Position numbers and translations under genes: made by a program
Part shown: positions 1,638-62,500 of the stretch, piece by piece
Layout of the letters: each line of letters begins with the position of its first letter
Position numbering within the stretch: the stretch's first letter is position 1
Notes under the pieces: model-generated
The model's input: the letters and a program-made list of their open reading frames with translations, nothing else
Databases searched by the model: none
What the model was told of the DNA's origin: nothing
Assembly: GCA_002118135.1 (NCBI GenBank)
Contig: BDIU01000246.1
Span: 126,463-190,462, forward strand
DNA from: Trebouxia sp. TZW2008
Lineage: Eukaryota > Chlorophyta > Trebouxiophyceae > Trebouxiales > Trebouxiaceae
Direction: 5' to 3'
Length of the DNA: 64,000 nucleotides

Positions 1638-4600
1638 ATGGAGCTCAAAGACGCCACCTTAGGGGTCAGGGTTGCAAACAACAGCGCCCCAATCACTGCA
1701 TACCCCTGGAAGAAGCGGGAAAGGCTCTGGTTGAAGCGGGCAAAGGTGAGCAGACACCTCAACAGATGCTGTGCAGCTCAATCCACTTTGATGACTGCTT
1801 GGTGAGGTCATTTGCTGTGTAGAGTTGCAGCACAATGTCAAGAAAGCTGTGCTTGACAGCACGCTGTAGCATCTTCTGATGCCACTTTTCAATTCAAGGA
1901 ATGGAGATTATGTATGCAGATGCGCAGCCCTTCTTCGCGCGCACTGTGGCTCAGCATCCAGCCGCAAGTATGGAGTGAATTTGTTCAAGAAATCATCCAA
2001 CCCCATGCGCTACCCAAAGTGAGCAATGCACTAGCTGTGCATCCTGCAGTTTCTCGGCAGTAAAACATCAGTGCCAAAGCAAGACTAGCTGGAAGTTTGT
2101 CAGTGACATGTGTGCAATGTCATGTGTGCACCGGCAGATGTGCCGCACAGTGTGTGCAGTAACACATGCAATCATCACCCTGAATCTAGTGATTGTACAA
2201 TTGAGCATGAGTGGGTGGCTGCTTTGTGGCTTGACATGCAAGTTGCCACTTGCTATGAAAAGTGAGTTTGCTGTCCAATAGCTGCGTATGTGCACTCATC
2301 GATGAATCTCTTCTGCTTTTGCCTAAATCTGCCCATTGAGGCACTGCATGATTTCTGAGGATTGGCTGGATGTGGCAAAACAAGCTTTGAGGCTGCATTG
2401 ACGCTTTGGCTGTCTTTGCAGAGATGTAACACACGCATGGCACACTTATTGGATGTTCATCAGGCTTGTGACGGCATTGAGCCTGAGGCAAAAGTGAGAG
2501 AGTATGGGATGTTCTTCACAACCTGCGCCAGGGAGGAAAAGCTGGAGTTCCTCTGTGAGCTGTATGGCCTAGCATTTCTGCAGCTGGTAAACCTCTGCTG
2601 TTTGTTCTGATTTACTGTGTTCTTTCACAGTGCATGCTAGATAGGCTCAGCCGGCCCAGGCTTTTGATGTTGCTGTTGGACACCTTGCATGTACGTGGCT
2701 CAGATGTCAACAAAAGCACTAACAGCAGGGATTAGATTCACTGTGTTTTGCACACACTGCCTTCATGCACATTCATTGCTATCAATACAGACATTCAGCA
2801 GCACTTGGCATGTATGTGGCTCAGATGTCAAGCCAAGGGCTAACAGCAGGGATGCAACAGGATTAAGTGTATTGTGCACACACTGCTTTCATGCACATTT
2901 ATTGCTATCAATACAGACATTCAGCAGCACAGAGATGACCGCACATCATACGCCTTTACAGTAACTTGCGCTTGGCTTGCCATTTGTTCAAGTCAGACCT
3001 TGCTGAAGGTTGCGTTTGAACCTGTCTGTATTCTGACCTCTTGCTGCTACCTCCAGTTGACATCAGGCCTGTTTTACAGGTCCAATGTTACGCGTATCTC
3101 CATGTGTCAAGCAGATTTCCTGTCCCAAACAGGCATCAGCTCTTGTTTTTGCTGTTATGTTGCAGCACGGTCAGCTTTGCAGCTCCCAGACCTCAGCTTG
3201 TTCAGACATGTACCCACCTTTGCGCCATTGACACAGGTCCAGGAGTGGGACCAGGATACCAAGGACAAGGTGAACCAGTGCATGGCAGCTAGAGCAGATG
3301 CTGATAAGGACTATAGGGAATCAAGAGCTTCTGAGGCCAAACTCAGGCAGGAGCTTGCCATCAAAAGTGAGGAAGGGTTTGCCTTCAAGTCAGCTGGTAA
3401 GGAAATGCTTCACAATGAGAATCATCATACCTCAACCTGATGGACACATAGGCATTGCTGCTGTCTCGCGAATGCGATCAGCCTTTTTGGCTGGCCAAAG
3501 CACGTGAAACTCTTGGTCTTCTTCTTTTCTGAGTGACTGACACCCTGTGACTCTGGCTTCTTGCGTCTCAGGTTTCAGTGACAACATATTGTGTACTTCA
3601 CACATTACACTGCATCCCAGTACTCCACTACTTTCCAATGCTTGCGTATTGCGTCTTGCTTACTGCATATGGAGTATGACAGGTGGTGGTCAACTGCTGC
3701 TTTGAGCTACACAAGCTCAGCAGACTTTGATGCTGTCAGGGCAAATGGAAGCAAGCCACCATTATGCAAAAACCCAAATGCAGCAGTTCATCATCAAGCG
3801 CACTGTTGTAAGGCGCTGTGTACATTTCTCAAATAGTCCTGATCGCTGTATGCTACACAACTCTCAGGCGCCAAATACAGACTTTTGAAGGTTCTTTGTT
3901 TGTCCATCATGAAGCTTACAAAAGGAACATACAGATGGCATCCACTTATATACCAGTCTGTTTTCAAACTGAAGCCACCCAACATGTTATATCGCAAACC
4001 GACATGCTATTGAATCGACATGATATTGAAACCGATATGTTATATTGCAAATGCAGGCAAAGCCATGCTGACTAGCGTTTCTCAGAGCCTTCCTCCCAAC
4101 AGGTTGGCAGCTATCCCTGTCTTCCATCTGTGAGCAGTCACAAGGTCACTGGTATTGATATTGAAGTTAACGATTCATGACATTCTGATCTTGCATGTGG
4201 CAACTGCAGGCAAAGTTGAGCTGGCTAGCACTGCTCACAGCCTTCCTACCAATGGGCCAGCAGGCATCCCTGCCTTCCACCCAGGAATGGTCCCAAGTGC
4301 CACACAGCCAGCATATGGGTTAGACATGGCGACCCATCACCCCTATTGCTCAGTAGCGTCACCTGCTTTGCACTTGGGAGCCAGCAAGACTGAAGACCTG
4401 GCAGCAGCGGTGGCCACTGATTTTCAGGCTGCTGACAAGGCAGAAGCTGAGGTGGCCAAGAGTGCGGTGGCCACCGCTGACTGGCGGGACAGAGCAGTGC
4501 GGCCACAGCCTACACGAGGTGTGTCACTTATCATAACCCATTTGTCATTGCATGCTGGCTAGTGAGGTTTCATGATCTTGCTAGGTGTGAGCGCATCTTT

Positions 4601-59500: not shown

Positions 59501-62500
59501 TGCTCTTTCAACCTAGAGAACATCCTAGGAGCAACATCACAGCAGCTTGAGCTTCGACATATGTTGCTTGAGCAGCCGTGCAAGCAGCCACAAGCTGAGT
59601 CAGGGTTCAGGAAAATCCTGCTGTCCTTGTGCAGATTTGCTGCCCACTGCCACTGGATACCAGCTGCCAAGTGCAAACAGATCTATGCTGAGCCATTGCT
59701 CAAACAATGTGGCTGTCTGTGTCCAGGTTTGATGTCAAGTGCAAGCGGATGCAGGAGGAGTCGCCACACAGGCGGCAGCCTCCCTCGGCTCTCGTCGTGC
59801 AGAGTTGCTGCCAACTGCAGTCAAATTCAAGCTGAGTGATGTCAAATCTGACTTGGCTGTCCTGATGCAGGTTTGATGTCAAGTGCAAGCGGATACAGGC
59901 AGAGTTGTCACTTGGCTGGCAGCTGGCCTGGCCTGTTGTTTTGTCGCGCTTCTGCCAATTGAAAGCAATTACAGGCTCACTTGATGTCAAGTCTGATTGG
60001 CGGTCCTGATGCAGGTTTGATGTCAAGTGCAAGCGGATACAGACGGAGTCGCCACATGGGCGGCGGCCGGGCTGGGCTGTGCGGCCCGTCATTGTCAAGT
60101 CAGGGGATGACTGCCGTCAGGAGCTGCTGGCCGTGCAGCTCATCAGCACCTTCCATGATATCTTCCAGGCAAGACAGCTAGCAGCATTTTGTCTGGCACT
60201 GTAATTTTGCTCAGATCTGCCATTATCCTCAAAAGTACTGCAATGCTGTACCTGCAAATTGTGCGCTTCTTCTGACTTATTTGCTGCTAGGCTCTGATGC
60301 AGATCAATGCTTTGTTGCTGCTGATTTGCAACATGCTGCGTTGTGCGCAAGATGAAGTAACATGCCTGCTGTCACACATGTTCTGCGCGGTAGTGGCTGC
60401 ATCCCAGCAGTTGCTGGAATTGTGCAGCAAGGCGACCTTCATTTGCGTATTGTGCAGTCATAGGATGTATGAAGCAGCAGCACTCACAGTCAGCAGAAAG
60501 TCTGATTCATCAACAGGAAGGCAGACCTGTCCTTTGCTTTTGCGACGATGAGCTTGTTGGGGTTGCCACCTGCACCTTCCTTCTGCAGCCCTGCAATGCT
60601 GCTGTGTCAGAGCTGTTTTGTGATGTCAAGCGCTGTCTGTATGGTGCAGGAAGCCCATTTGCCGCTGTGGCTGCGGCCCTATGAGGTGCTGGTCACCAGC
60701 AACCGCACCGCCCTCATAGAGCTCATACCTGACAGCCTCTCCATCCACACCATCAAAGCCAAGTCTGCACCTGGCACCTCCCTAAGAGATCACTTTATCG
60801 CACGGCATGGTCAGGTACAGTAACAATAATAAATAAATGATTACACTTTCCAGCACATGTGGCCCAAGTCCTATCCCGCCAGGCCAGCTTGTTCTGAGCG
60901 GCCGGTACAGTAATGTGCCAATTGTGTTTGCCGTGTTACGAAATAAACCCTTACATGACAGCCAAGTCTTCATGCAGCACTTCTCTTTGGGATCACCTCA
61001 TCGCATGGCATGGTTAGGCTCAAGCAGCTGATCCTGGTCTGCTCCCTTGCATTGCCATGTCAACTGCCCTAAATTTGTCACTGTTGTGTCTGTTCCCTGC
61101 AACTCGTCCGTCATCTACCTCACCATCCTAGGCCTACCCCACAGGCAAGGCCTAGGAGCGGTCCTTGAACAACAAGGGTTGTGCACTAAGTGTCAACGAG
61201 CACCTTTCTTAGGCTATCAACGGGTTACATTCTTCCCTTTCATTGCTCGCCATGTCAAGATACAAACAGCTCAAGCTTGCCTGCTGCCCTACAGTGCCAT
61301 ATCTCTGGCACTTGACTGCACATTTGTCTGCAGGCTACAGCAGAATGTCTGGAGGCCCAAAGGAATTTTGTGGAGAGCATGGCAGGCTACAGCCTAGTCT
61401 GCTTCTTCTTGCAAATCAAGGACAGGCACAACGGCAACATCATGCTGGATGAGCGAGGTCACATCATTCACATCGACTTTGGGTTCATGCTCAGTAACTC
61501 ACCTGGTGGCGTCAACTTTGAGGCGGCTCCCTTCAAGTTGACTCGTGAGCTGCTTGAGGTCATGGACTCCAATTCAGAGGGCAAAGCTTCAGAGCTCTTT
61601 GACTACTACAAGGTCAGTCTCTGCTGCTATCTCTCTGTGGTTTCTTTATATCTGATCTTTGGCTCAGAATGCTGGAGGTCATGGACTCCTTTTCAGAGGG
61701 CAAAAGCTTCAGAGCTGTGGTCAGTTCACAGGCTGTTTAGACATCTGGACATGTTGCGCTTAGTATCATAGATGGCCTGACTGATCTTCAGCTTGAATGG
61801 GATGGCTCCAGACCTTTTTGATCACTATAAGATTAGCAGCACTTCAGGCTGTTTAGACATGGCTTGCTTGCATTTCTCTTGACCTTCAGCTTATTATGCA
61901 AGGCTTCAGAGCTGTATGATTAGGGTTGAATTGTGAGGCTGTGTGTATAGCTCGCTGACATATCGTTCGACTAAACTCAGAAAGCAAGGCTTCAGAGGCA
62001 CAGTCACTTCTGCAGTTATCAGCACAAATCCGCCATATTCAGTGCAATCTGAGTCTGCCACCGCAGTCTGTATAGCCATAGGTAGCACTAGTGAAACCGC
62101 CGCGCTCCGCCTGGTGGAGGGTGGGTTTGTGGACAGTGCAGGCATCAAGCTCATATTTTCAAGGTTTGTATCCTTAGCCCTTTCAGTGTGTGGAAGACAT
62201 GGTTGCTTGATGCAGGTGCTATGTATACAAGGCTTCCTGGCCTGCCGAAAGCATGCGGATCGTGTTGTGCTGCTGGTTGAGATGATGCAAGGCAGCGGCT
62301 GTCCGGCCTTCAAGGCAGGACCACGCTGCGTGCACAACCTGCGCAAGCGCTTCCATCTCAACCTCACGGAAACACAGGTGTGTTGCTGCACCTCACATCG
62401 TGATTGTTGCAATTGTCGGTGGCATATCTCTCTGACAGCACCTTCCTAGGTAACAGTTTGCATGCACATGTGCTGCCGTACTCAGCATGCTGTTGCATAG

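Follow-up and report, generated by a model that had tools for sequence, protein, structure and literature searches.

Why do introns next to an exon hold decayed copies of that exon's edge? The question is raised by a 64 kb stretch of DNA (the window) from the green alga Trebouxia sp. TZW2008 (GenBank assembly GCA_002118135.1, contig BDIU01000246.1, positions 126,463 to 190,462 of the forward strand). A first-pass annotation had listed 22 places in this window at which such copies, called echoes here, were proposed, head copies with acceptor lying upstream and tail copies with donor downstream of their exons. The genome assembly comprises 68.5 Mb in 527 contigs with a GC content of about 50%; published Trebouxia genomes have 63.7 and 69.1 Mb and 50.3 and 49.7% GC (excerpt of PMC12712428). 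Our analysis reveals a real mutational habit of the genome that is clearest beside exons, whereas an exon-specific device is not supported. The reading favoured on balance is a frequent, genome-wide copying of tens to about 200 bp in direct orientation to a place 100–200 bp away, by slipped-register copying in repair or replication, filtered by selection. Positions without a locus label refer to the window.

Echoes in the Window and in the Lipase Gene

Each listed position was compared with its own 700-bp surroundings from three starts and on two sides, i.e. in six tries, and 400 single shuffled comparisons served as controls (99% point 21, maximum 25). With scores of 50 to 124, 19 of the 22 positions have a local direct partner, and the same 19 are recovered by self-BLAST of the window; 24618, 32604 and 55660 reach a score of 26, which is about chance. 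Outside a coiled-coil-like gene region all self-BLAST rows are direct with the exception of three inverted ones (10659/18893 and two in a Helitron-type region). The proposed location at exon edges is backed by homology for a class-3 lipase gene and for the PI3/PI4-kinase exon 61343-61585, while 4052, 19440, 26301, 39160, 55660-56205 and 59722 are without independent exon support.

The clearest case is the lipase gene on the + strand, identified by a PF01764 match and by four exons that, translated as one protein, match PDB lipases with E 2.5e-14. In the databases the protein is matched best by one of Trebouxia sp. A1-2 (78% identity, 78% query coverage). Proteins of Trebouxia, Myrmecia and Coccomyxa align exon-wise with 32435-32596, 33361-33531, 34796-34990, 35496-35684, 36388-36531 and 36876-37067. 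The same protein segments also match several of the lipase echoes, more weakly.

The functional exon 32435-32596 (Coccomyxa protein P0008, residues 72-127, E 8.5e-12) has a head echo at 32239-32321, 82% identical to its partner 32424-32506. The functional exon with the FRGT motif, 33361-33531 (P0002, E 1.8e-17; P0008, E 1e-17; mostly covered by the PDB match), is followed by three decayed copies within 33596-34195, where protein segments match 33599-33763, 33902-34000 and 34058-34168. Two head echoes (34481-34576 and 34623-34716, together spanning 34481-34716) and one tail echo (35039-35124, 81%) accompany the functional exon 34800-34988, the borders of which read AG/34800 and 34988/GT. This tail echo has lost the GT of the exon donor, and the claim that echoes carry donor or acceptor does not hold everywhere. 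The functional exon with the GHSLGG motif, 35497-35684, which is supported by profile, PDB and protein-homology matches, shows a head echo at 35328-35386 (93% over 59 bp), separated by a 100-bp spacer unlike the flanks, and two tail echoes within 35779-35966, found as local pairs by self-BLAST. Among the matches listed genome-wide, 34623-34716 finds only itself and 34794-34886, and the tail-echo query 35779-35966 only itself and 35615-35705; such genome-wide searches score the best candidates only. As a side observation, the exon ends at 36523 and, in gene orientation, at position 923 of locus L024 read CAG/GCAAGT and look like those of GC-AG introns.

Local Copying across the Genome

A random sample of 15 stretches (147 kb) was drawn from other contigs; 5 of 20 random contigs gave no stretch. 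In these stretches and 60 kb of the window, pairs 20-800 bp apart were counted, with one dinucleotide shuffle each. The count gave 186 direct local pairs versus one inverted pair (46 of the 186 lie in the coiled-coil block), and no direct and one inverted pair after shuffling. Pairs cover 14,949 of the 147,367 bases of the 15 stretches (about 10%), two of which are without any. Echoes are restricted neither to the window nor to exons. The cause suggested for them earlier is supported: direct duplication over short distances is frequent, and one copy persists because it is an exon.

The offset distribution was obtained by a diagonal scan of window pieces and of random and exon-centred loci for offsets up to 1200 bp. 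It replaces the BLAST counts, which show no offsets below 50 bp; we think that BLAST loses matches near the self-diagonal, a perfect 49-bp tandem at 53126-53223 being absent from self-BLAST. The coiled-coil and Helitron regions were excluded from the offset, cluster and spacer analyses. Of the 130 clusters found in 288 kb (stretches of the window, random ones and exon-centred ones), 85 consist of one pair (simple pairs). The offset of 218 primary pairs has a median of 151 bp (quartiles 108-196, 5-95% 44-369), the block length ranges from 38 to 286 bp (5-95%), and for 8 loci the scan yielded 67 raw real matches versus 0 in block-shuffled copies. Two periodicities of the offset were discarded: a helical one gave p 0.38-0.83 for 10.2-10.5 bp, and a 147-bp "period" (p=0.003) was not used; it may merely restate the single hump of offsets.

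Exon Borders

Borders were searched with 60-nt queries in 600-bp flanks at a score of at least 40. A blind set of 79 exons, fixed before repeats were viewed, comprised 40 kinase exons and 39 exons of six TCP-1/cpn60 genes. The former, all without inside stops, were hand-picked roughly by rank from 134 kinase matches (the first few, which are the longest, were skipped), and the latter belong to the window's own gene and five more, taken for their high exon count. The gene PI4K_C163 (four exons), which brings the total to 83, is not blind, having been fetched after an overlapping match in it was already visible; its echo exon was struck off, which left 43 of 44 exons. As comparison 600 random 60-mers were used, from which 18 were removed as low complexity; the exon queries were used without such a filter.

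In the blind set head copies occur upstream of 6/79 exons and tail copies downstream of 8/79, compared to 0/158 wrong-way copies and 3/142 copies of exon centres; for all 83 exons the values are 10/83, 9/83, 0/166 and 5/146. No reverse-complement copies were found in this search. This geometry is seen at 8 of the 40 kinase exons, with copies that overlap the conserved core, and the TCP-1 genes C44 and C144 show no copies at their exons. Exon borders exceed exon centres in copies (14/158 versus 3/142 in the 79 exons, odds ratio (OR) 4.5, p=0.012). Random genomic 60-mers have a local copy upstream in 32/582 and downstream in 28/582 cases (60/1164 in total), and copies are thus not visible only at exons, as had been assumed. 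Compared to this background the excess at borders is modest and only suggestive for the blind edges (OR 1.8, p=0.065); OR 2.4 and p=0.004 result for 19/166 edges, a set that includes the non-blind PI4K_C163. Kinases alone (9/80) gave OR 2.3 and p=0.04, TCP-1 genes alone (5/78) OR 1.3 and p=0.60. Borders are thus likely, though not proven, to carry more copies than the genome at large.

Exon cores measure about 220 bp, and 23% of the exon-side placements of the observed offsets clear the exon. Beside 14 right-way copies 3.3 wrong-way copies are expected and none was observed (P=0.05); with the PI4-kinase gene included 4.5 are expected (P=0.018). With offsets of 100-200 bp most exon-side copies land inside the exon, where they are presumably lost. 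Selection explains this geometry mostly, perhaps not wholly.

Spacing and Mechanism

Strictly tandem duplication, as the first-pass annotation had it, describes a minority of the pairs. The spacer of the 85 simple pairs is ≤5 bp in 14, 6-30 bp in 23, 31-100 bp in 35 and >100 bp in 13 cases; once arrays are counted, 38/130 clusters abut or overlap (14/85 simple, 24/45 multi-pair). Block length and spacer of the simple pairs trade off against each other (rho -0.58), and the standard deviation of the offset is 46 versus 66 if length and spacer were independent (0/5000 permutations). The offset looks like the set quantity, within which the copied length varies. Spacers on average resemble neither flank (rank means 0.50 and 0.46 versus random segments), so that most pairs are not simply decayed tandems, and no increase of spacer length with divergence is seen (rho 0.10, p=0.38). 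With a spaced majority and spacers unlike their flanks, strict tandem duplication was rejected as the whole story.

For the slipped-register copying that we favour, a broken or stalled 3' end would re-pair with its own sequence 100-200 bp off, copy part of the interval, release and rejoin. Copying of the whole interval would result in a perfect tandem and an early stop in a spaced pair, with direct orientation. An insertion within the exon would be removed by selection and one in the adjoining intron tolerated, which would leave head copies upstream and tail copies downstream of the exon. The exon itself would stay constrained while the copy drifts, and exon-derived pairs would be recognisable longer than intron-intron pairs. 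Beyond the observed orientation, clustered offset, geometry, neutral drift and genome-wide occurrence, we infer the step of repair or replication.

Several observations weigh against this reading. Besides the border excess, which is not firm once the non-blind PI4K_C163 is left out, these include the abutting or overlapping clusters; leaving out arrays may itself sharpen the trade-off between length and spacer. In 21/61 cases the right flank is among the top 20% of ranks (12 expected), and some spacers may therefore keep a faint likeness to it. Old pairs are detected more readily if their blocks are long, so that later loss may still have contributed. Local inverted pairs do exist, e.g. in four rows of locus L061, and a zero-distance palindrome in the Helitron region stands outside the 186:1 count. 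The 98% identical spaced pair 28375/28487, first taken as the youngest spaced pair, belongs to a dispersed repeat and does not speak for a local event.

The main rival is ordinary tandem duplication of 100-200 bp units by paired-nick fill-in or slippage, followed by partial outer deletion of one copy, a possible but rather unlikely origin. This sequence of events also keeps the offset, which is the less variable quantity, as if it were the original unit length. The abutting or overlapping clusters fit it as well, and tandem duplications at staggered breaks are documented (excerpt of PMC8355091). However, the spacer is ≤5 bp in only 1 of 14 clusters with an identity ≥90% (one of the 14 being the dispersed repeat), and it does not rise with divergence.

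A more far-reaching version of our own reading assumes a direction-locked process, unusually active in this lineage, with a set reach of some 100-200 bp, on the scale of nucleosomes or Okazaki fragments, that steadily supplies new alternative exons by placing spare exon edges with their splice sites in adjacent introns. We regard this as improbable. Its live example would be a tail copy of PI4-kinase exon 2 at L059:1819-1955, which is 88% identical. With its open frame and a donor of its own, this copy is the strongest candidate among the echoes for an alternative exon in use.

The fate of the copies can be followed at the codon positions of their exons. Mismatches between echo and exon amount to 76/630, 75/632 and 141/630 at positions 1, 2 and 3 (12%, 12% and 22%), and to 60/481, 62/484 and 110/482 without PI4K_C163. 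The underlying 21 alignments were selected from those found; they cover 17 exons, some of which are represented twice or three times, so that the counts lack independence. The values fit an echo that drifts freely at about 12% per site and an exon that changes mainly at third positions, by about 10% more. An intron-intron pair accumulates changes in both members; a pair derived from an exon is therefore expected to remain recognisable for up to about twice the time, in agreement with the 1.7- to 2.2-fold difference seen.

This drift bears on the proposal that echoes act as a source of alternative splice sites. The pooled echoes drift neutrally, although a present or past coding role is possible for a few of them (PI4-kinase exon 2 in L059, L024); our analysis, which is one of sequence, gave no evidence of echo splice-site use. 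We consider it very unlikely that echoes are functional as alternative or mutually exclusive exon ends or as splice decoys kept by selection. The third-position bias of some of them (L024 tail 11/14, C170 exon 6 tail 9/12, PI4-kinase exon 2 tail 9/13 and head 10/14) points in that direction, as do the open frame and donor of the L059 copy. In contrast, the pooled codon positions match a neutral copy, the heterogeneity among the 21 echoes is not significant (p=0.09), and several echoes contain frame-breaking indels or have lost splice dinucleotides. Mutually exclusive tandem exons comprise a whole exon with both splice sites and the frame kept, while in 16 exons an edge is copied, three of which have separate copies of both edges. 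The nearest exceptions are the nearly whole but decayed copies of lipase exon 33361-33531 and the open PI4-kinase exon 2 tail copy in L059.

A process that makes copies at exon borders and is specific to exons or coupled to splicing, e.g. RNA-templated or R-loop-linked, is hardly credible. It could account for the difference between borders and centres, perhaps for that between borders and random sequence, and for the missing wrong-way copies, but it was rejected in view of the like pairs with like offsets in random genome stretches, and the slower loss of exon-derived pairs together with selection against exon insertions explains the pattern.

Dispersed repeats or assembly errors can be dismissed with similar firmness: 4 of 5 window repeats are without a match outside their own neighbourhood among the matches listed, 0/10 local pairs of L014 overlap a dispersed match (best 40 of 826 candidates), and a divergence of 5-30%, as in most pairs, exceeds what assembly errors would produce. 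The repeat 28370-28545, which was not on the earlier list, is dispersed; it contains internal direct repeats and has 23 genome-wide matches on both strands among the matches listed. A dispersed family of about 120 bp was also seen at L014:7377-7514, directly after a local pair, with 36 other copies (76-90%) among the matches listed.

Comparison with Known Duplications

The first-pass annotation knew of no standard name for the pattern. Short local duplications ("doublets") and repair-mediated duplications (RDs), including copied exons and splice sites, have been published (PMC2671141). According to Pace et al. 2009 (PMC2671141), vertebrate RDs lie nearby, are spread over the genome and, when proximal, have a mean length of 162 bp and a maximum of 619 bp. 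At times they copy exons and splice junctions, with two complete duplicated exons lacking coding constraint and one exon copied in opposite orientation. Tandems within 50 bp were excluded there, the distance peak near 1.2 kb is suspected by the authors to be an effect of the method, and the 824 events counted are those in human transposon-derived sequence.

The algal copies are like RDs in short size, proximity, genome-wide spread and the copying of exons and splice junctions. RDs as a class are defined by breakpoint signatures (microhomology, deletion or filler at the insertion point), and the likeness stated here refers to the other features. With offsets of 44-369 bp and blocks of 38-286 bp (5-95%), they fall within the RD range of ≤5 kb from the source and a length up to about 619 bp; their spacers, from 0 to >100 bp, straddle the RD limit of >50 bp from the source. 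In contrast to the RD peak at about 1.2 kb, their offset is mostly 100-200 bp, and they are nearly always direct. They look denser than RDs (130 clusters in 288 kb versus 824 events), although the detection rules differ and the comparison is one with printed values only. Doublets are cited in PMC2671141 as having many attributes in common with RDs; as described there after Thomas et al. 2004, they are mammalian, identical or nearly so, <100 bp and tandem or close. Both doublets and algal copies are short, local and tandem or close. Overall, the algal pattern resembles the known RDs and short local duplications and appears related to them, and is distinct by its shorter clustered offset and almost exclusively direct orientation.

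Patch-mediated repair in rice leads to short, abutting tandem copies in direct orientation. Small tandem duplications at staggered breaks are direct and short, with copies that abut (Schimmel et al. 2021, PMC8355091). In the alga the spacer exceeds 5 bp in 71/85 simple pairs and in 92/130 clusters with arrays; the majority of the copies thus do not abut, and a minority may be of this kind.

Gao and Lynch 2009 and Zhuo et al. 2007 reportedly described the gain of introns by tandem duplication. Duplication near exon borders yields extra splice-site copies there as in the alga. In the intron gain of Lehmann et al. 2010 (PMC2891723), exonic proto-splice sites are duplicated in tandem and the new intron arises inside coding sequence, whereas the algal copies lie within introns and leave the exon unchanged where tested. 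For this reason the pattern does not appear to be intron gain in the sense of PMC2891723. The lipase exons together encode one protein that aligns with proteins of Coccomyxa and Myrmecia, and the echoes lie between the exons. More tandem repeats near intron-exon junctions were reported for plants and two green algae (PMC3887541), the motifs named there being short. No description of the pattern in Trebouxia was found in open-licence literature.

About one tenth of the sampled sequence lies in recognisable short local copies, which makes this genome suited to studying how short duplications arise. With a decaying intronic copy beside its exon, mutations of a known kind can be spotted and dated with unusual ease: exon echoes polarise the event without a second genome, the exon being the source and the intronic copy the newcomer, and they carry their own clock, as mismatches at codon positions 1 and 2 reflect mainly how far the copy has drifted. 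The clustered offset of 100-200 bp with variable copied length is a specific clue to the mechanism. Gene finders may mistake decayed exon edges beside real ones for exons.

Further Features of the Window

Further local copies without an assigned strand are 4047-4126 (copy of 4200-4279, offset 153, 76%; exon status without independent support), a pair at 39161-39330 (offset 98, 78%; gene assignment unsupported) and an array at 56107-56395 (offset 108). On the + strand, 26303-26503 is a copy of 26096-26299 (offset 207, 81%) past the stop of the open frame 25960-26292, with exon status likewise without independent support. The copy 29830-29914 (offset 124, 79%) and its source 29706-29790 both match one Coccomyxa lipase segment, only with E 0.08-0.14. 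Still on the + strand, a local array at 30253-30513 (offset 89) is followed by a near-tandem pair at 31095-31364 (offset 141), the second copy of which enters the lipase-homology stretch 31311-31535 (32% identity), by copies of 33251-33363 at 32940-33162 (76-85%) and, downstream of the lipase-homology exon 36876-37067, by a near-tandem pair at 37317-37669 (offset 181, 77%). A local array with period 144 at 59663-60080 (+) has no other place among the matches listed genome-wide. The copy 60954-61018 (+) corresponds to 60751-60815 (offset 203, 75%), and 61670-61716 (+) is a tail echo of the PI3/PI4-kinase exon with partner 61551-61596 (91%).

On the - strand, acceptor-side copies at 50662-50853, absent from the earlier list, lie beside a TCP-1/cpn60 exon; they are mostly intronic and overlap the exon match by 13-16 bases. 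Elsewhere in the genome, at L061:648-1285, a 180-bp inverted repeat has its arms in both introns flanking a TCP-1/cpn60 exon; it belongs to the small number of local inverted pairs observed.

The coiled-coil-like gene region, 12400-23100, contains many 66/87-bp repeats of glutamine-rich units; its open frame 11465-13405 matched no Pfam family. Within the region, 19435-19983 (+) is an array of about 4.4 copies with a period of about 125 bp, the other listed matches of which lie genome-wide within about 2.4 kb on the same contig. A perfect TCATCT array (25095-25158) is followed by a 63-bp minisatellite (25273-25544) that is open in frame. Rfam at gathering thresholds gave no match in the window, and ARAGORN no tRNA.

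A Helitron-type element occupies 42368-46958, with an open frame (42368-45949) carrying Helitron_like_N and PIF1 helicase domains. The region includes a 178-bp inverted copy (43792-43969 / 46608-46785, 98%) and a near-perfect palindrome at 46784-46958 (97%). An open frame with a GIY-YIG nuclease domain (46582-47196, E 7.7e-14) adjoins the Helitron frame.

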